Assembly (NCBI GenBank): GCA_945900455.1
Contig: CAMDJH010000006.1
Location: 1-52,434, forward strand
Source of the DNA: Akkermansia muciniphila
GTDB lineage: Bacteria; Verrucomicrobiota; Verrucomicrobiia; Limisphaerales; UBA9464
Length of the DNA: 52,434 nt
Direction of reading: 5' to 3'
Shown here: piece by piece, positions 2,535 to 16,558 of the stretch
How positions within the stretch are numbered: position 1 is the first letter of the stretch
Layout of the letters: each line of letters opens with the position of its first letter
The notes under the pieces: model-generated
The model's input: the letters and a program-made list of their open reading frames with translations, nothing else
What the model was told of the DNA's origin: nothing
The model's database searches: none
Made by a program: the position numbers and the translations under genes

Positions 2535-3968
2535 TCAAAGCACTCTCACCAGATCGGCAATTGCCCATGAACTCGTCGAGACTGATAGTTCCTCTGCGGC
2601 GCGACCGTGCCGCCAGACCGCATAGCGGAGCACCTTTTCGACCCCCGACTGTAACGCCGGCTGGGCGAGAAGTCCGGCAATGAATCCCGCCAACACATCC
2701 CCGCTTCCACCCTGCGCAAGACCCGGGTCGCCGCTGCTATTGATGCTAATCGTCCCGGCCGATCGCCCCACCAACGTCTGGTGCCCCTTTAACACCACCC
2801 AGCAGTTTCCGAACCGTTGGGAAATACGGCGCAACGCGTCCGAACGGTTTTGCTCCACGGCATCCACGGAACATTTCAACAGACGCGCCGCCTCCCCCGG
2901 ATGCGGCGTCACAATCCGTGTCGTCGCCGACGCCATCGCGGTCTCCGGCAACCAATCGAGCGAACTGGCATCGACCACCACCGGAGCCGGCGCGGAGATC
3001 CACGCCGCAAGAAATTTCTTCTCGCAAAGGACTCGAGCCGCCCCCGACGCGAGACCCGGTCCAAAAAGCCAGGCTGTTGCTCTTGCAGGTTCGGGCAGTT
3101 CCCCACTTCCCACCACCACCGGGCGCACCATCACCTGCTGCATCTGCGACGCAACCGGACCGTACACCTCCGGAAGGGTCTCCAACGTGATTAAGCCAGG
3201 CCGTGCACGCAGCGCCCCCCAGCCCGCCAGAACGGCTGCCCCGTGATAGCCGAGCGAGCCGGCTAGGATTCGCAAGTGACCCAAGTCTCCCTTGTTCACG
3301 TCGACGTCGCGCGGCGAGGGGAAATCGGCGAAATCATCCGATTCGACCCAAACAAGTCGGTCGGTTGCCGGAACTCCAACGAGTCCCACGTCGCGAGCCA
3401 GTTCGAGGCGTCCGACAAGGGCGGACGCACCCGGAGTCAGGAGCCCGGCCTTCGGTGCCCCAATGGTTAGCGTTATTGCCGCCTTCACCACACTCCCAAG
3501 GGCCGTGCCCGTATTCGCATCCAATCCCGAGGGAATGTCGACGGCCAATACGGGCCGCCCGCTCGAATTAATCCGGTCGATCAGCCGATTCCAGGGCTCG
3601 CTCAATGCACGATTCAGTCCGATGCCAAACAGACCATCCACAATCCATGCCGGCCGTCGTCGCAGCGCATCGACAAGAGCCAACCCATCGGCCTCCGGCT
3701 CGGTCACGGACACGAGTTGCCAACTTCTTCCGGCACGTTCCTCGGTCGAAATCGAATCCAGAAAGCGAACTGCCGCCCGGGCGTCGTTGCCGTTGTTCCC
3801 GCGGCCTGCCAAGAATAAGATCCAAGAGCCCGGGGGAGCCAGGCCCAACACGCGATCGGCAATCCGACGGCCGACCTGGTCAATGACCGCTTGAGGCAGC
3901 ACGCCAGCGGACCACGTGGCCTCTTCCCACGTTCGCATTGCTTCGACAGTGACCACCGGAATCGCCAT
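2535..3968 (-). CDS. nnrD: Bifunctional NAD(P)H-hydrate epimerase / ADP-dependent dehydratase
   Basis: A 477-residue two-domain enzyme that repairs damaged, hydrated NAD(P)H. The N-terminal half is a YjeF-N epimerase: AGRGNNGNDARAAVRFL, where the usual second G of NNGGD is N, then VDGLFGIGLNRAL and AVDIPSGLDANTG. The C-terminal half (from about residue 225) is a ribokinase-like dehydratase with KGDLGHLRILAGSLGYHGAA, TPHPGEAARLL, VVLKGHQTLVG and the ADP-site motif GLAQGGSGDVLAGFIAGLL. The start MAIPVVTVEAMR matches the family N-terminus; the open frame continues upstream into the neighbouring gene but without family sequence. It lies 20 bases downstream of the sigma-54 regulator, so the two probably share a transcript. 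Confidence 0.92.
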   Translation of the reverse strand: MAIPVVTVEAMRTWEEATWSAGVLPQAVIDQVGRRIADRVLGLAPPGSWILFLAGRGNNGNDARAAVRFLDSISTEERAGRSWQLVSVTEPEADGLALVDALRRRPAWIVDGLFGIGLNRALSEPWNRLIDRINSSGRPVLAVDIPSGLDANTGTALGSVVKAAITLTIGAPKAGLLTPGASALVGRLELARDVGLVGVPATDRLVWVESDDFADFPSPRDVDVNKGDLGHLRILAGSLGYHGAAVLAGWGALRARPGLITLETLPEVYGPVASQMQQVMVRPVVVGSGELPEPARATAWLFGPGLASGAARVLCEKKFLAAWISAPAPVVVDASSLDWLPETAMASATTRIVTPHPGEAARLLKCSVDAVEQNRSDALRRISQRFGNCWVVLKGHQTLVGRSAGTISINSSGDPGLAQGGSGDVLAGFIAGLLAQPALQSGVEKVLRYAVWRHGRAAEELSVSTSSWAIADLVRVL

Positions 3969-3988
3969 GGGAACTTTCGTCTGAGTTT

Positions 3989-5434
3989 CTATCCAATATT
4001 GAGCTCCTGCCGAATCTCGAATTTCTCGATTCGCTTCCGAAGAGTGGCCCGCGTGATGCCCAACAGCTTCGACGCGTGCACCTGGTTTCCCCGCGTTTCT
4101 CGCAGCGCCTCGACCACCAAAACCCGTTCCACTGCGGGGATCAACTTGAGTTGGGGATCCACCCGTGCCTGTCGGAACATCGCGCGCGCGAGCGTCACCA
4201 GGCTCGGGACATCTTCCCGCGCCCCGCTCGCCCCCTGGGGCATCCCCGACTCCGTTGTCATCACCTCCGTTTTTCCAACGATTTCGGCGGGAAGATCCGC
4301 CGGAAGGAGCGTCGGGCCCTTCGACACCACCAACGCTCGCCGAATGACGTTTTCGAGTTCTCGCACATTGCCAGGCCACGGATAGGCCTCCAACCGCGTG
4401 AGGGTGTCGGAGCCCACAGCTTTCGGTGGGCCACTCCCGACCAATTTTCTCAGGAAATAGTCCACCAAAAGCCGGATGTCCTCCTTCCGTTCCCGCAAGG
4501 GTGGCAGTTGCAGGCGAACCACGTTCAGTCGATAAAATAGGTCCTCGCGGAACCGGTTTTCGGTAACCGCTTTCTCCAGAAGCTTGTTCGTCGCGGCAAT
4601 CACCCGGACATCCACTGTCACCGTCTGGTTACCACCCACCCGCTCAAAGGTACCCTCCTGCAGCACCCGAAGAATTCGCGTCTGTGTGGCCGGTGACATG
4701 TCGCCAATTTCATCCAAAAAAAGTGTTCCTCGATGGCATTGCTCGAATTTTCCAATTCGCTGGCTAGTGGCTCCGGTAAATGCGCCTTTCTCATGACCAA
4801 ACAATTCACTCTCCAGGAGATTCTCCGCGAGAGCCGCACAATTGATCGCTAGAAATGACTGCGCACTCCGACGGCTATGGTGATAGATCGCCCTCGCCAC
4901 CAGCTCTTTTCCCGTTCCACTTTCGCCCGTGATCAGTGCCGTGGCATCACTGCCCGCCAGTTGACCGATCAGCTTGAACACATTCTGCATCGCCTCGCTG
5001 CGTCCAACCACTCCAACTTCGTAATCCTCCCGTGAAAGGCTGGGCTGCAAGGTGACCGCCTCCCGCATATCGCGCGATGCCTTCAAGGCGGCAGCGATCA
5101 GCGCCTTGAGCTTCGGAATGTCAAAGGGCTTCAGAAGATAATCAAACGCCCCCAACTTCATCGCCTCGATCGCCGTCTGTGTCGTGCCATACGCGGTCAT
5201 TAGGATGACTGGCACCTTGGCATCGAGTTGGCGCAGTCGGCGCAAGGTTTCCAGGCCGTTGATTCCCGCCATTCGCACGTCCGAAACCACGATATCGGGC
5301 CGCACCTGTGCGAAAAGCTTCAGACCCTCTTCGCCACCGGAGGCCGTGTGAATCGCCAACTCGGTGGAGGCGAACAGCCTCCGAAACGAGTATTGCACGT
5401 CCGCTTCGTCATCGATCAGGAGCAGTTTTTCCAT
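3989..5434 (-). CDS. Sigma-54-dependent response regulator, NtrC family
   Basis: A 481-residue transcription activator with the full NtrC layout. The receiver domain (1-120) has LLLIDDEADVQYSF, the phospho-acceptor Asp in PDIVVSDVRMAG and the Lys in LLKPFDIPKLK. The AAA+ domain (about 145-390) has Walker A GESGTGKELVARAI, the sigma-54 contact loop GAFTGA and Walker B LFLDEIGDM. A Fis-type helix-turn-helix lies at the end (NQVHASKLLGITRATLRKR). The ATG at 5434 places the receiver at the N-terminus. No histidine kinase is present in the window, so it is an orphan here. It is divergent from cstA, with 149 bases between the starts, which makes cstA a possible target, but I found no -24/-12 promoter with correct spacing. 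Confidence 0.9.
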   Translation of the reverse strand: MEKLLLIDDEADVQYSFRRLFASTELAIHTASGGEEGLKLFAQVRPDIVVSDVRMAGINGLETLRRLRQLDAKVPVILMTAYGTTQTAIEAMKLGAFDYLLKPFDIPKLKALIAAALKASRDMREAVTLQPSLSREDYEVGVVGRSEAMQNVFKLIGQLAGSDATALITGESGTGKELVARAIYHHSRRSAQSFLAINCAALAENLLESELFGHEKGAFTGATSQRIGKFEQCHRGTLFLDEIGDMSPATQTRILRVLQEGTFERVGGNQTVTVDVRVIAATNKLLEKAVTENRFREDLFYRLNVVRLQLPPLRERKEDIRLLVDYFLRKLVGSGPPKAVGSDTLTRLEAYPWPGNVRELENVIRRALVVSKGPTLLPADLPAEIVGKTEVMTTESGMPQGASGAREDVPSLVTLARAMFRQARVDPQLKLIPAVERVLVVEALRETRGNQVHASKLLGITRATLRKRIEKFEIRQELNIG

Positions 5435-5583
5435 TTGTAGAGCGCCCAGTTCCACTCGGCCCCTCACCGGTACCACATTGCATCGATACCCACGAGGATT
5501 CATCGGGCAAAATGGCGGAAAATCCTGCAGAACTGGGTAGAGAAATGCTTGTATCTTCCCGGCCGGGCTGGAATCTCGCACGA

Positions 5584-7989
5584 ATGCGTCTCCTTATGAA
5601 GACCAGTCTCTGGTTGGTGATCGCCGGATTGGGAACGGCCGCCTACGCCAAAATCACCATGACCCGGGGCGAACCGCTCAATTCCGGGTACCTCGTGCTC
5701 GCGGCCCTGTGCACCTATGCCATCGGCTATCGGTTCTACTCCAAATGGATCGCGACCGCCGCCCTGGCGCTGGACGACCGCCGGGCAACCCCGTGTGAAG
5801 TCCATGAGGATGGACGAGATTTCGTCAAGACGCACCCGTGGATCGTCTTCGGGCATCACTTCGCGGCGATTTCCGGCCCGGGTCCGCTCGTCGGTCCTGT
5901 CCTGGCCGCTCAATTTGGGTATCTGCCAGGGACACTCTGGATCCTCATCGGTGTTGTTTTGGGCGGTGCGGTGCAGGATTTCATCATCCTGGCTGCGTCC
6001 ATCCGTAGGAATGGCCGCTCGCTCGGGCAAATGGTTCGCGACGAAATTGGGTCGCTCGCCGGTACCGTGGCTCTCGTCGCAATCTTGGCCATCATGGTTA
6101 TTCTCCTGGCGGTGCTTGGACTGGTGGTCGTAAAGACCCTGGCAGAAAGTCCGTGGGGAGTATTTACCGTGGGCGCAACAATCCCCGTCGCTTTCTTCCT
6201 CGGGTGTTATCTTCGCTGGTGGCGACCCGGGCAAACCCTCGAGGCATCGGTGATTGGTGTCTTGCTCCTCATCGCATCGGTTTGGGGCGGACAATACATT
6301 CATTCCCATGAAAATCTCGCCCGCCTTCTCACCTTCGGTCCGGAACCGCTTGCATGGGGAATCATTGCGTACGGCATCGCCGCGAGCATTCTGCCGGTCT
6401 GGCTGCTGCTCGCCCCCAGGGATTACCTGAGCACGTTCATGAAACTCGGTACGATCGTCGCCCTGGCGCTCGGTGTCCTCCTTGTCTTGCCCTCGATGAA
6501 GATGCCACCCGTTACGCGTTTCATCGATGGCTCCGGATTGGTGGTCGCCGGCAAATTGTTCCCCTTTTGCTTTATCACCATTGCCTGCGGGGCAATCAGC
6601 GGTTTTCACGCACTGATATCGAGCGGCATTACGCCGAAAATCATAACGCGGGAAGCGCACGCCCGTTCCGTTGGATACGGCGCAATGTGCCTGGAATCAC
6701 TCGTGGCCATCATGGCGATGATCTCGGCGTGCACTTTGGATCCAGGAATTTACCTGTCGATGAATGTGAAAGGCACCGGTGCGACCGCGGCTGCCGTCGC
6801 CGCCGATACGGTAGCCAAAGTGAATGCCACCGGATTTCTCGTCGACACGTCGACGATGGATTCACTCGCTCGTCAGATGGGCGAAAAGTCCCTGTACGGG
6901 CGCACGGGAGGCGCCGCCACTCTGGCGGTCGGGATGGCAGGCATCTTCTCCCAGGTCACCGGCGGGCGTGGGAGTGATTTATGGTATCACTTCGCGATCA
7001 TGTTCGAGGCTTTGTTTATTCTGACCACCCTCGATGCAGGGACGCGCGTTGGCCGATATCTGCTGCAGGATTTTCTCGGCCACCTTCGCCCGTCTCTCGG
7101 CAACACCCGATCACTCCCGGCCAATGCGCTCGCCAGTGCGCTGGTGGTCGGAGGTTGGGGATTCTTCCTGATTCAGGGAGTCCGCGACCCACTCGGAGGG
7201 ATAAATTCATTATGGCCGCTCTTTGGGATTGCCAATCAACTTCTCGCGGGCATCGCACTTTGTTTGGGAACCACGGTCCTTCTAAAAACCGCCCTCGGCC
7301 GACGCAACCGCCAACCCGCCAACCCCATCGGCATCACGAACTCACCGGCGCTCGCTTGCGTGACCTTGGTGCCCTTGTGCTGGCTCCTGGCGGTCACGTT
7401 TACGGCCGGTGTCCAAAAAATGTTTCACCCCTCCCCCCGGATCGGGTTCCTTGCTGCCGCGGATGTCCAGAAACCGATCATCGCCGAAGCTCAATCGCGG
7501 TTGACACAACTCGCCGGAGCGGCCGATTCCCCTCCGTCCGTCGCCGCACGCAACCAATTGCGCACAGCCAGCCGTCTTCGCTTTAACAACCACTTGGATT
7601 TCGTCGTCACGGGAATCTTCCTGGCACTCGCCGCCGCCATCGTCGGAATTTCGGCCCTCGAATGGCTCAAGCTCCTCAATGGAAGACGAGCCCCTACTCT
7701 CACAGAAACTGCCGCAGTCTGGCTTCCCGACTCCGCCCTCCGGCCCGCAAGCCCTTTGCCAGTGCTGGGTACCGCCACATTGGTGATGTCGCTCGCCCGG
7801 GAATTATCCGGCGAAACGGCCATCGACCGATTGCAGTCCCAGGCGTGCCAGCATGATGCGGCAAGAATCTCCACCCGTGTCGTTATTGACCTTCCCGAGG
7901 TCCGCGCCGCGGTCTATCGAGATTCACGCGCACATGCCTATGTCGCCGCTGCCGAACAACGCTTCGAAGGCATCAACCGCTGCTGCTGA
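5584..7989 (+). CDS. cstA: Carbon starvation protein CstA (peptide/pyruvate transporter family)
   Basis: A large integral membrane protein of the CstA family, whose characterised members import pyruvate or peptides when carbon is scarce. Many hydrophobic helices are visible, together with the family signatures DGRDFVKTHPWIVFGHHFAA, ISGPGPLVGPVLAAQFGYLP, GGAVQDFIILAASIRR and MFEALFILTTLDAGTRVGRY. The C-terminal part (after about residue 600) holds the additional hydrophobic segments and a soluble tail of about 110 residues. With the ATG at 5584 the protein has 801 residues; ATGs at 5545 and 5596 are also possible, as there is no clear ribosome-binding site. It is divergent from an NtrC-type regulator and 5 bases upstream of nadD. 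Confidence 0.9.
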   Translation: MRLLMKTSLWLVIAGLGTAAYAKITMTRGEPLNSGYLVLAALCTYAIGYRFYSKWIATAALALDDRRATPCEVHEDGRDFVKTHPWIVFGHHFAAISGPGPLVGPVLAAQFGYLPGTLWILIGVVLGGAVQDFIILAASIRRNGRSLGQMVRDEIGSLAGTVALVAILAIMVILLAVLGLVVVKTLAESPWGVFTVGATIPVAFFLGCYLRWWRPGQTLEASVIGVLLLIASVWGGQYIHSHENLARLLTFGPEPLAWGIIAYGIAASILPVWLLLAPRDYLSTFMKLGTIVALALGVLLVLPSMKMPPVTRFIDGSGLVVAGKLFPFCFITIACGAISGFHALISSGITPKIITREAHARSVGYGAMCLESLVAIMAMISACTLDPGIYLSMNVKGTGATAAAVAADTVAKVNATGFLVDTSTMDSLARQMGEKSLYGRTGGAATLAVGMAGIFSQVTGGRGSDLWYHFAIMFEALFILTTLDAGTRVGRYLLQDFLGHLRPSLGNTRSLPANALASALVVGGWGFFLIQGVRDPLGGINSLWPLFGIANQLLAGIALCLGTTVLLKTALGRRNRQPANPIGITNSPALACVTLVPLCWLLAVTFTAGVQKMFHPSPRIGFLAAADVQKPIIAEAQSRLTQLAGAADSPPSVAARNQLRTASRLRFNNHLDFVVTGIFLALAAAIVGISALEWLKLLNGRRAPTLTETAAVWLPDSALRPASPLPVLGTATLVMSLARELSGETAIDRLQSQACQHDAARISTRVVIDLPEVRAAVYRDSRAHAYVAAAEQRFEGINRCC

Positions 7990-7994
7990 ATCCA

Positions 7995-8585
7995 ATGCCA
8001 ACACTCGGATTATTCGGCGGCTCCTTCGATCCGCTGCATCTGGGCCACTTGCTGGTCGCCCAGGCAGCCCTCGAGGAGTTGTCTCTCGACCGCCTTGTTT
8101 TCCTTCCGGCGGCCCAATCCCCCTTCAAGCCGGGCACAACGCCCGCACCCGCCTCCGCCCGCCTCCGCATGCTCCGCCAATCGCTCGCGGGTCAGACTCG
8201 GATGGCCGTGGATGACATGGAAATCCGACGGGGCGGCGTCAGCTTTACCGCGGAATCCTGCCGTGAATTCTCGCGTCGTCATCCCGGTTCGCGACTGTTC
8301 TGGCTGATTGGGGCTGACCACGTCCCAACCTTACCCTTGTGGAGGGACGCGGAACAGCTCGCTCAAATCGTGGAATTCATTGTCATACCGCGCCCCGGCG
8401 AACCGTCGGCAGCATTACCGCTTCCCTACCGCCTCCATCCACTCTGCGGCTGGCCTCTCAAAGTTTCGTCATCAAAAATTCGGGATCGAATCAAATCGGG
8501 CCTGCCCATCCAACACCTCGTCCCCTCGGTCGTCGCAGAACAGATCGAACGCGAAGATCTGTATCGCTCAATATCACCGCGTTAA
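7995..8585 (+). CDS. nadD: Nicotinate-nucleotide adenylyltransferase
   Basis: NadD joins nicotinate mononucleotide and ATP to give deamido-NAD in NAD biosynthesis. The 196-residue protein has the nucleotidyl-transferase N-terminus LGLFGGSFDPLHLGHLLVA (HxGH motif HLGH), the mid-protein WLIGADHVPTLPLWRD and the C-terminal SSSKIRDRIKSG (SSTxIR class), followed by VPSVVAEQIEREDLY. Length and motif order are normal. Its start is only 5 bases after the cstA stop, so it is probably translated from the cstA transcript. Its stop overlaps the stop of the convergent small gene by four bases (a shared TTAA). Confidence 0.93.
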   Translation: MPTLGLFGGSFDPLHLGHLLVAQAALEELSLDRLVFLPAAQSPFKPGTTPAPASARLRMLRQSLAGQTRMAVDDMEIRRGGVSFTAESCREFSRRHPGSRLFWLIGADHVPTLPLWRDAEQLAQIVEFIVIPRPGEPSAALPLPYRLHPLCGWPLKVSSSKIRDRIKSGLPIQHLVPSVVAEQIEREDLYRSISPR

Positions 8586-8866
8586 CCCGTCGCATCTCCC
8601 CGCGCGCGCGCTTTCTTGGCATCGCGATCCATCTCCAATTTTTCCTTTTCCGCAGCAAATCCAGCGCGGATTTGCTGGACCTTTTCCCCGTCCCCGGCCG
8701 CTTGTGCCACCACCAGCTCGTCCTGCATTCGCAATTCCTTTTCAGCCGTCCGGGCCCGACAGATCGATTCGATCTCCGCGAGTTCCTTTTTTTGGGCAGC
8801 CGTCAATGTTTTCGTCGGCGCAGCCTTACTGAGCCGTTCCATCGCAAGTTCAAAAGCAGACTTCAT
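8582..8866 (-). CDS. Small conserved charged coiled-coil protein, function unknown
   Basis: A 94-residue soluble protein beginning MKSAFELAMERLSKAAPTKT and consisting largely of a charged helix (AQKKELAEIESICRARTAEK, then further E/K/R-rich heptads). It has no signal peptide, membrane segment or Cys-His cluster. Short proteins of this type, with the SAFELAMERL opening, are to my knowledge common in Verrucomicrobiota and Planctomycetota, but no function is known. I chose the internal ATG at 8866 because it gives the recognisable N-terminus; a longer frame starts at 8974 inside the neighbouring hairpin repeat and is not credible. It overlaps the nadD stop by four bases. Confidence 0.72.
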   Translation of the reverse strand: MKSAFELAMERLSKAAPTKTLTAAQKKELAEIESICRARTAEKELRMQDELVVAQAAGDGEKVQQIRAGFAAEKEKLEMDRDAKKARARGDATG

Positions 8867-14404: not shown

Positions 14405-15787
14405 ATGTTTGAGAAAATCCTAATTGCAAATCGTGGCGAGATCGCCATCCGGATCATCCGGGCCTGCCGGGAGCTCAATATTCGAACTGTCGCAATCTAC
14501 TCGAAGGCCGATGCCAATTCGATGCATGTCCAGGTGGCCGACGAAGCCATCTGTATCGGAGAAGGTCCGAGCAACGATAGCTACCTGCGGATTGATCGGA
14601 TCATCAGTGCGGCGGAAATCGCCGATGTCGATGCAATTCATCCGGGGTATGGATTTCTCAGTGAGAATGCCCACTTCGCCGACGTTTGCGAGAGCTGCAA
14701 CATCCGGTTCATCGGGCCGCGTTCGGCGGCTATGAACGCACTGCATGATAAGGCGGTCAGCCGCAACCTCGCGAAAAAGGCCGGCGTCCCGACGCCGCCC
14801 GGCTCCGAAGGGCTCGTAGAAAACGAGCAGGACGCCAAGGAGGTTACCAAAAAGATTGGGTATCCGGTCATGATCAAGGCGATTGCCGGAGGCGGTGGAC
14901 GCGGCATGCGCGTGGCGCACAACGACGTTTCGTTGGTGAAGGGGTATCACACCGCCCGCAGCGAAGCGGAGAAAGCCTTTGGCAACAGTGGAGTCTACAT
15001 TGAAAAATTTATCGAAAACCCGCATCACATTGAATTCCAAATTCTGGGGGATACGCGGGGCAACATCATTCACCTGGGCGAGCGGGATTGCTCCATCCAA
15101 CGACGCCACCAGAAACTGATCGAGGAGACCCCCTCTCCGCTCCTCGAGACCCGATTCAAGGGACTGCGTAAGACGATGGGCAAGGCGGCATTGCGCATCG
15201 CCGAGATGTGCAACTATTCCAACGCGGGCACCGTCGAGTTTATCGCGGATGAACAGGGGAATTTTTACTTCCTGGAGGTTAATAAACGTATCCAAGTCGA
15301 GCATCCCATCACCGAGGAAGTCACCGGCGTCGATCTGGTGAAACAACAGATCCTCATTGCCGCCGGAGAAAAACTTTCCATCAGTCAGAGCGACGTCGTA
15401 TTCAAAGGGCATGCCATCGAATGCCGCATTAATGCCGAAGATCCCTTCGATGACTTCCGCCCCAGTCCGGGCCGGATTGAAATGTACTACGCTCCCGGCG
15501 GCGGCGGCATCCGGATCGACTCCCACGCCTACGCCGGCTACACCATTCCTCCGTATTATGATTCGTTGATCGGCAAGTTGATTGCCTTCGGAAAGAATCG
15601 AGCGGATGCCATGGACAAGATGAACCGTGCTCTGAGTGAGTACATGATCACGGGAGTGAAAACCACCATCCCGTTCCAGCTCGCCATCCTTCAGGACCCG
15701 GACTTTCGGCGCGGCAGTTATACCACGACCTTCGTTGAGCGACTCCTTAGTGGAGCCCGACGCGAGTTGATTCAGGAGAAGGCCTAG
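14405..15787 (+). CDS. accC: Biotin carboxylase subunit of acetyl-CoA carboxylase
   Basis: AccC uses ATP and bicarbonate to carboxylate the biotin on AccB. At 460 residues it matches the family length. It begins [20 protein letters not shown]. Visible are the [18 protein letters not shown] stretch, the ATP-grasp glycine loop [32 protein letters not shown], the metal- and catalysis-related [18 protein letters not shown] (K replaces the usual T), and the C-terminal domain with [11 protein letters not shown] and [13 protein letters not shown]. It lies downstream of accB in the normal order. The carboxyltransferase genes accA and accD are not in the window. Confidence 0.95.
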
Positions 15788-15979
15788 CCCGCCTTAAAGC
15801 GGCTCCCAGTTGCCCCCTCCGCGACCCATCGTCCGTGTGAGTGAGGGCCCCGGTCCGATTTTCGGATTGGACTCCTCAATCCCGGGCAGACACAACCGGT
15901 GAGTGGGTGTTCCGTCGCGCGGGTCATCTCGGCAACGGTGTTGCGTGATCGCCCGCCCGCATGCTACCTTAACCTCACT

Positions 15980-16558
15980 ATGAAATCCCACATCTCCCTG
16001 CTCACCGCCTTGGCCTTGGCTCTCGCCCTGCCGGCATTCGCTGCGGAACCGGCTAAGGAACAGATCAATACCGTCTGCCCCATCAGTGGCAAACCCGTGG
16101 ACCCGAACATCACCGTCGTCTACGAGGGTAAGACATTTGCCTTCGCCGCCGAGGCCTGCCGGACAAAGTTTAACGAAGTCCGTGCGAACAGCCTTTATCA
16201 GAAGCTTGGGGGCAAGGGTGCCATCGATGCCGCCGTGGAACTGTTCTACAAGAAGGTGCTCGCCGATGCTCGAGTGAAGCACTACTTCGATGACATCAAT
16301 ATGAATAAACAGCGTCGAAAGCAGAGGGAGTTCCTCTCCGCCGCTCTCGGCAGCCCGATTCCATGGACTGGCAAGGACATGCGCACCGCGCACGCTAATA
16401 TCCCAGGCCTCAATGAAACGCATTTCACTGCGATCGCCGAAAATCTGAAATCCACGCTGCAAGAATTGAAGATCAGCAAAGATCTGATCAATCAAGTGCT
16501 CGCCCTCGTCGGGACGCTGCATGACGACGTTTTGAACCTCCCCAAGCCGGCGAAATGA
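15980..16558 (+). CDS. Secreted YHS-like / group I truncated hemoglobin fusion
   Basis: A 192-residue protein with a signal peptide (MKSHISLLTALALALALPAF, cleavage near residue 23), a short YHS-type metal-site segment (NTVCPISGKPVDPNITVVYE, then EGKTFAFAAEACRTKFNEV, about residues 32-68) and a group I truncated globin (residues 72-190). Globin features are SLYQKLGGKGAIDAAVELFY, ADARVKHYFDDINM, GKDMRTAHANIPGLNETHF (the His after MRTA is the probable proximal heme ligand) and a C-terminal helix. Truncated globins are usually cytoplasmic, so export is notable. The ATG at 15980 is chosen because it begins the signal peptide. The gene appears monocistronic. A role in periplasmic O2, NO or metal chemistry is inference only. 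Confidence 0.8.
   Translation: MKSHISLLTALALALALPAFAAEPAKEQINTVCPISGKPVDPNITVVYEGKTFAFAAEACRTKFNEVRANSLYQKLGGKGAIDAAVELFYKKVLADARVKHYFDDINMNKQRRKQREFLSAALGSPIPWTGKDMRTAHANIPGLNETHFTAIAENLKSTLQELKISKDLINQVLALVGTLHDDVLNLPKPAK

Follow-up and report, generated by a model that had tools for sequence, protein, structure and literature searches.

An exported-type truncated globin with an N-terminal YHS segment in Verrucomicrobiota and its probable role in nitric oxide scavenging

What might a bacterium do with a truncated globin that carries a signal peptide and, ahead of the globin, a segment resembling a YHS domain? The question is raised by a gene on the forward strand, at positions 15980..16558, of the window, the whole 52,434-nucleotide stretch of DNA analyzed here, from a 6.43-Mb draft genome (G000; 420 contigs, 90% complete) whose relatives are Verrucomicrobiota. 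The open reading frame starts with ATG at 15980, ends with a stop codon at 16556-16558 and encodes a 192 aa protein with a layout common to 26 compared sequences. The reading frame, Pfam searches and structure matches confirmed the order proposed in the initial annotation, namely a signal peptide, a YHS-like segment and a group I truncated globin, and the AlphaFold model of the 192 aa protein (mean pLDDT 82.4) has a YHS hairpin and helix followed by the globin. No neighbors suggestive of a function were seen within the window: upstream of the gene are what we take to be accB/accC-like genes, and downstream there is presumably a DUF1549/DUF1553-type plus DUF1501-type pair.

A Sec-type signal peptide is predicted at about residues 1-21 (15980..16042, forward strand), read by eye as MKSHISLLTALALALALPAFA-A with an AxA motif before the expected cut, and the model has pLDDT values below 50 over residues 1-24. 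By a simple heuristic, 24 of the 29 exported-type proteins, among them that of the window, have a signal peptide, as against 0 of 13 cytosolic-type relatives; these two sets are split in the globin tree with a support of 100/98. The predicted export, already suggested at the outset, is well supported at the level of sequence.

The globin domain spans residues 71-186 (16190..16537). Pfam Bac_globin (PF01152) matches residues 71-185 with 55 bits (cut-off 21), among solved structures the closest are group I truncated hemoglobins (2ksc, E 8.5e-30; 1dly, E 1.6e-29; also 1idr), and the model superposes on 1dly with a Z of 19.0 and an rmsd of 2.1 over 119 residues. Its predicted identity as a group I truncated globin is near certain. 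Alignment to 1dly/1uvx places Tyr90 (16247..16249) at distal position B10, Gln111, Lys114 and Gln115 (16310..16324) at E7, E10 and E11, and His138 (16391..16393) at F8 as the proximal heme ligand, these helix-position names being our assignment. Tyr90, Phe103, Gln111, Gln115 and His138, the last already reported as retained, are found in 29 of 29 exported relatives, and Lys114 in 26 of 29; on the basis of this invariant pocket, the protein is expected to bind heme. The fold, Tyr B10, Gln E7, Gln E11 and the proximal His are shared with group I (N) truncated hemoglobins such as Chlamydomonas eugametos LI637 (1dly), the cyanoglobins and THB1, and LI637 also has Lys at the same aligned E10 position; unlike these proteins, that of the window has a signal peptide and an N-terminal YHS segment. 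A cyanoglobin-like covalent heme attachment was rejected because the His near the C-terminus (GTLHDDVLN), which we take as the cyanoglobin-type histidine for such attachment, is not conserved in the exported YHS-globin family. The window genome also encodes a second globin of 133 aa (G000:C141:7850-8101), in which no signal peptide is apparent by eye, next to a presumably alaS-like gene.

Judged by the pocket, the closest characterized relatives include algal THB1. In Mycobacterium tuberculosis HbN, the B10/E11 pair reportedly serves NO dioxygenation. For Chlamydomonas reinhardtii THB1, the section of the source used here describes a distal lysine as heme ligand and NO dioxygenase activity of the recombinant form (PMC4304232), and a survey, in the portion drawn on, connects most proteins of the Nd subgroup with NO detoxification (PMC4720485). 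The same pocket bears on two other functions. A small, exported protein with a heme fold could be a heme carrier, a hemophore-like protein scavenging or delivering heme outside the cell, but this is very improbable given an invariant distal pocket (Tyr B10, Gln E7, Gln E11) expected of a ligand-reactive globin, and no heme-uptake genes were recognized among the neighbors printed or scanned. An exported O2-handling globin, acting as a periplasmic O2 sensor, store or oxygen-reducing electron acceptor, would accord with the joint stabilization of ligand by B10, E7 and E11 stated for truncated hemoglobins in excerpts of the survey (PMC4720485), and has a precedent in the lPHCtX cytochromes of cable bacteria, whose truncated hemoglobin domains likewise lie outside the cytoplasm, in the periplasm, and are proposed to act as oxidases (PMC11976967). 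Unlike the window globin, however, those are fused to a pentaheme cytochrome for the proposed O2 reduction, with no YHS in the sections of that source used here (PMC11976967). There is no fused multiheme cytochrome in the window protein, nor was one recognized among the neighbors printed or scanned, and we regard the O2-handling globin as unlikely.

The segment ahead of the globin, residues 30-69 (16067..16186), is modeled as a beta hairpin (41-55) and a helix (58-69). Pfam YHS (PF04945) matches residues 37-66 with 20.3 bits, under the cut-off of 30.3, whereas a profile-profile comparison (hhalign) with canonical secreted YHS modules of related genomes gave a probability of 99.1% over 43 columns, and because of this result we consider the homology real despite the sub-threshold score. 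The window spacing N30-x2-C33-x22-A56-x3-C60 equals D178-x2-C181-x22-C204-x3-C208 of the Mycobacterium phlei adenylyl cyclase, whose YHS ligands are given as D178, C181, C204 and C208 in the extract used of PMC4626032. By this spacing, Asn30 (16067..16069) stands at the ligand Asp position and Ala56 (16145..16147) replaces the second cysteine, while Cys33 (16076..16078) and Cys60 (16157..16159) correspond to the first and third. The segment thus resembles YHS/TRASH domains, both that of the cyclase and the secreted ones of Verrucomicrobiota, in profile, ligand spacing and predicted hairpin plus helix, and differs from them in its Pfam score and in having two of the four positions (Asp or Cys, plus three Cys) replaced. 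Many secreted canonical YHS proteins occur in Verrucomicrobiota (L010, L011, L053-L065), some within larger membrane-type proteins, and L011 has repeated YHS copies.

Among the 26 fusion sequences, the cysteine complement runs from three to none. All three cysteines are present in two (L081 and L082, the only ones with Cys at position 56), the first and third without the middle one in 19, including the window protein, Cys33 alone in three (L067, L079, L080), and none in two, both lipoprotein-like; Cys33 is kept in 24 and Cys60 in 21. Three further proteins (L085, L086, L087) consist of a signal peptide or lipobox plus the globin without YHS, and group in the globin tree with the three-cysteine L081 (support 92/84); the inner order of the tree is mostly weakly supported, so no number of YHS losses is claimed. 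With ligand positions replaced and a variable cysteine complement, neither the extra metal-site segment nor the metal carrier suggested by the initial annotation finds support in the window protein: a working YHS metal site is unlikely there, and the metal carrier was dropped as a main reading.

The segment is not simply drifting. Its dN/dS was 0.09-0.37 in nine of 13 pairs, those with finite dS (dS was saturated in the other four), and that of the globin 0.04-0.11 over all 13 pairs, so both halves of the fusion are under purifying selection, the YHS segment being somewhat less constrained in most pairs, and a plain relic without selection is unsupported. This selection, the pairing of Cys33 and Cys60 in the 19 sequences without the middle cysteine and in the two with it, and the response to Cu of the M. 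phlei cyclase YHS domain described in the material used from PMC4626032 would all suit a metal-responsive globin, in which YHS, binding Cu(I) or Zn through these two cysteines, would modulate or supply the heme. Against it stand the two lost ligand positions of the window protein and the relatives with Cys33 only (three), without YHS cysteines (two) or without YHS (three), and we consider it rather improbable. The model of YHS alone (mean pLDDT 65.5) had no significant match in Foldseek (best E 1.5); a match to toluene/o-xylene monooxygenase hydroxylase (rmsd 0.7 over 22 columns, E 1.9) was discarded as not significant, a YHS domain being mentioned for the related toluene-4-hydroxylase in the excerpt used of PMC4626032. 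With the full model, globins filled the list and no YHS structure appeared among the matches.

The same signal-YHS-globin order was found, in the database survey that had been proposed as a check, in the 26 compared sequences, all from Verrucomicrobiota, and conservation of this layout across families of the order excludes a chance fusion. The systematic survey covered the window's order and a sample of the phylum. A search of 320 genomes of the order gave matches in 88, many of them YHS proteins or globins alone, with at least 22 fusion carriers when broken and remnant copies are counted (G001, frame-broken; G002, split over two contigs; G691 and G692, with only a YHS remnant left) and a further frame-broken candidate in G475 is left out. 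The gene of G001 (L024 / L008), a genus-mate, is broken by frame changes that could reflect either a decaying gene or an assembly error. A 387-genome sample of the phylum added two carriers outside the order, G291 and G256. A pattern-limited scan of contigs returned 22 loci, ten of which (L015-L024) have YHS-globin genes, whole or broken, all titled as Verrucomicrobiota or members of that phylum, some being halves of one gene or from the same genomes as the order search; the other 12 loci hold globins that lack YHS, from Pseudomonadota, Planctomycetota, Bdellovibrionota, Chloroflexota and others. Five of these contigs (L016, L018, L019, L022, L023) are labeled Akkermansia muciniphila, and most equal order-mates of the window (G459, G477, G002), so the labels look wrong. 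Fusions of truncated globins to PAS domains were also seen in L041 and L093 (Verrucomicrobiota) and in L025 and L033 (titled Micavibrio and Alphaproteobacteria), with the globin N-terminal in L033, L041 and L093 and C-terminal in L025, and with chemotaxis (MCP) domains in L025, L033 and L093, L041 being covered in part.

Clustering of the neighbors in 25 regions revealed a recurrent Rrf2-family regulator. In a neighbor check of 31 entries, 28 of them fusion carriers, a divergent NsrR-like gene lies upstream of the globin in 14 of the 28 carriers (G459, G458, G552, G568, G704, G476, G563, G564, G031, G615, G691, G692, G291 and the L019 record), its product being 62-100% identical to the regulator of L095; in G291, an HPP gene intervenes. 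An adjacent NsrR ortholog is absent in 13 carriers, the window included (for G614, over 585 upstream bases only), and the contig of G477 ends 225 bases upstream; the Rrf2-type neighbors of L020 (no tblastn match) and G256 (36% identity), which are not NsrR orthologs, were left uncounted. Close to their N-terminus the NsrR-like regulators carry an SDYSLR-type motif, and they have three Cys, Asp8 being described as a cluster ligand of Streptomyces coelicolor NsrR in the part of PMC9338935 consulted. Five regulators, including the 36%-identical one of G256, which is outside the 14, were scanned against NCBIfam: NsrR was the best model for four and RirA for one, with 103-125 bits, over the Rrf2 superfamily cut-off and below the equivalog cut-offs (182 bits for NsrR). 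Across the order, NsrR-like genes occur in 13 of 22 fusion carriers vs 35 of 298 other genomes (p 7.5e-7, uncorrected for kinship).

A palindrome near AAGATGCATTNNNAATGCATCTT was found between the globin and regulator genes. The published NsrR consensus, gATGyAT-N5-ATrCATc in the excerpt of PMC1274295 used, was adopted so as to avoid fitting a motif of our own, and 27 upstream regions were scored over 14 positions against 500 shuffles that keep base composition only. Ten loci reached 12 or more of 14 (L094, L095, L099, L100, L101, L103, L105, L107, the globin of L111, and L019, which scored 14/14); all are NsrR-linked, and for each no more than 2 of the 500 shuffles did as well. A score of 11 was obtained for L104, L021 and the no-YHS L113, and scores of 8 to 10 for the remaining 14 regions; site-to-start distances are approximate for L096, L102, L103, L107 and L109. 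On the other hand, the region upstream of the window gene (15680..15979) had a best score of 8/14, equaled by 487 of 500 shuffles, and the seven matches at up to three mismatches in the window (4.04 expected) were dismissed, none lying upstream of the gene. Control in keeping with NsrR-regulated NO detoxification was found at the orthologous genes and not at that of the window.

The neighbor was assigned to NsrR because of the operator, of the SDYSLR motif with its three Cys, and of what such genes adjoin elsewhere. In G523, an NsrR-like gene precedes a cytochrome c gene and one whose product matches solved NorB (E 2.6e-110), and in G508 and G637 its vicinity includes Fe-S repair genes that pass the NCBIfam cut-off; the three regions also have NsrR-type sites of 12 or 13 out of 14. 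In several of ten NsrR-like regions elsewhere in the order, no NO-linked gene was recognized. The globin has an HPP-family gene (PF04982) as its direct neighbor in L111 and L021, and one about 1 kb downstream in L112; a plant HPP protein is described as a nitrite transporter in the passages used of PMC4137279. In L112 (G256), a second weak truncated globin gene (6378-6851, 23.6 bits) is located between the Rrf2-type regulator and the YHS-globin gene. Of the initial suggestion of a detoxifier of O2 or NO, the NO part gains support from the NsrR-like neighbors, operators and HPP neighbors of the relatives; NsrR-type control points to NO and not to O2, which further counts against an O2-handling globin.

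No NsrR ortholog was found at E 1e-20 in the window genome (90% complete) or two genus-mates, the best Rrf2 proteins of the former being 26-32% identical. The window genome does encode a copper nitrite reductase, NirK, over the cut-off (366 bits) and with a C-terminal cytochrome c domain, and in this incomplete genome neither cNorB (E 1e-40) nor qNor (E 1e-30) was found. The nirK cluster (L127, G000:C50:10500-26500; 7124-8656 and 3127-7083, minus strand) includes FGE-like, SCO1 and NnrS genes. These findings bring up a joint scheme in which an NsrR-controlled exported globin removes NO made by NirK in cells without a recognizable NO reductase, the YHS being a two-cysteine redox or Cu(I) element, to which we give little weight; that the converted YHS might serve as docking or reduction partner for the ferric heme, a part of this scheme, is likewise doubtful. 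Coupling to NirK was rejected, for NirK is present in the window genome but not enriched in carriers (4 of 22 vs 37 of 298 others). Elsewhere, cNorB was found in eight of the 320 order genomes, G523 being the sole fusion carrier among them; a qNor query of 24 carriers gave only a cross-match to the cNorB of G523; and NnrS occurs in 11 of 24 carriers, with the copy of G569 less than 3 kb from the globin.

We consider it probable that the protein is an exported NO-scavenging globin whose YHS segment is a folded cap or docking element, and that it is NsrR-controlled in many relatives. NO removal outside the cytoplasm is probable because the gene stands beside an NO-sensing switch in about half of the relatives. 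The globin would be exported unfolded through Sec, bind heme b outside the cytoplasmic membrane and scavenge NO there; the most likely chemistry is NO dioxygenation as in group I truncated hemoglobins, in which oxy-heme and NO would yield nitrate and ferric heme, the latter being re-reduced by some partner. Such turnover would need a reductant outside the cytoplasm. In many relatives, NO would release the NsrR-like repressor from the operator between the two genes and so induce the globin. The YHS domain would descend from a small metal-binding module; in the window protein, where half of the canonical ligand positions are gone, its likelier function is that of a folded cap or docking element. 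A Cys33-Cys60 disulfide might hold it in shape; the lone Cys33 of L067, L079 and L080 fits poorly with such a bond being conserved. Counting against the NO reading are the missing NsrR ortholog and operator in the case of the window, the 13 of 28 carriers without an adjacent NsrR ortholog, and the lack of NirK enrichment in carriers; NO scavenging is nonetheless the best-supported role for the family, and we infer that the window copy shares the function of its NsrR-linked relatives.

With its NsrR-like regulator and gATGyAT-N5-ATrCATc sites in relatives, the family resembles the globins of NsrR regulons, such as the Hmp flavohemoglobin and others. Hmp is cytoplasmic and has its own reductase domain, whereas the window globin is predicted to be exported and lacks one. 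Work on globins of NO defense has mostly concerned cytoplasmic enzymes that have a reductase. Searches with most subscription journals and preprints outside their scope found no literature joining a truncated hemoglobin with a YHS domain, or a truncated hemoglobin, NsrR and the periplasm; none was found by title or abstract start on a globin-YHS/TRASH fusion, or, among the matches listed, on truncated globins with a signal peptide or in Verrucomicrobia. If the proposed role is true, an exported, NsrR-controlled truncated globin would bring NO removal to the place where nitrite reductase produces it, and would make the source of electrons for heme re-reduction on that side of the membrane an immediate question. 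Within this one family, YHS sites run from intact to absent, which is a natural experiment in how a metal domain changes its use or disappears next to an unchanged fusion partner.
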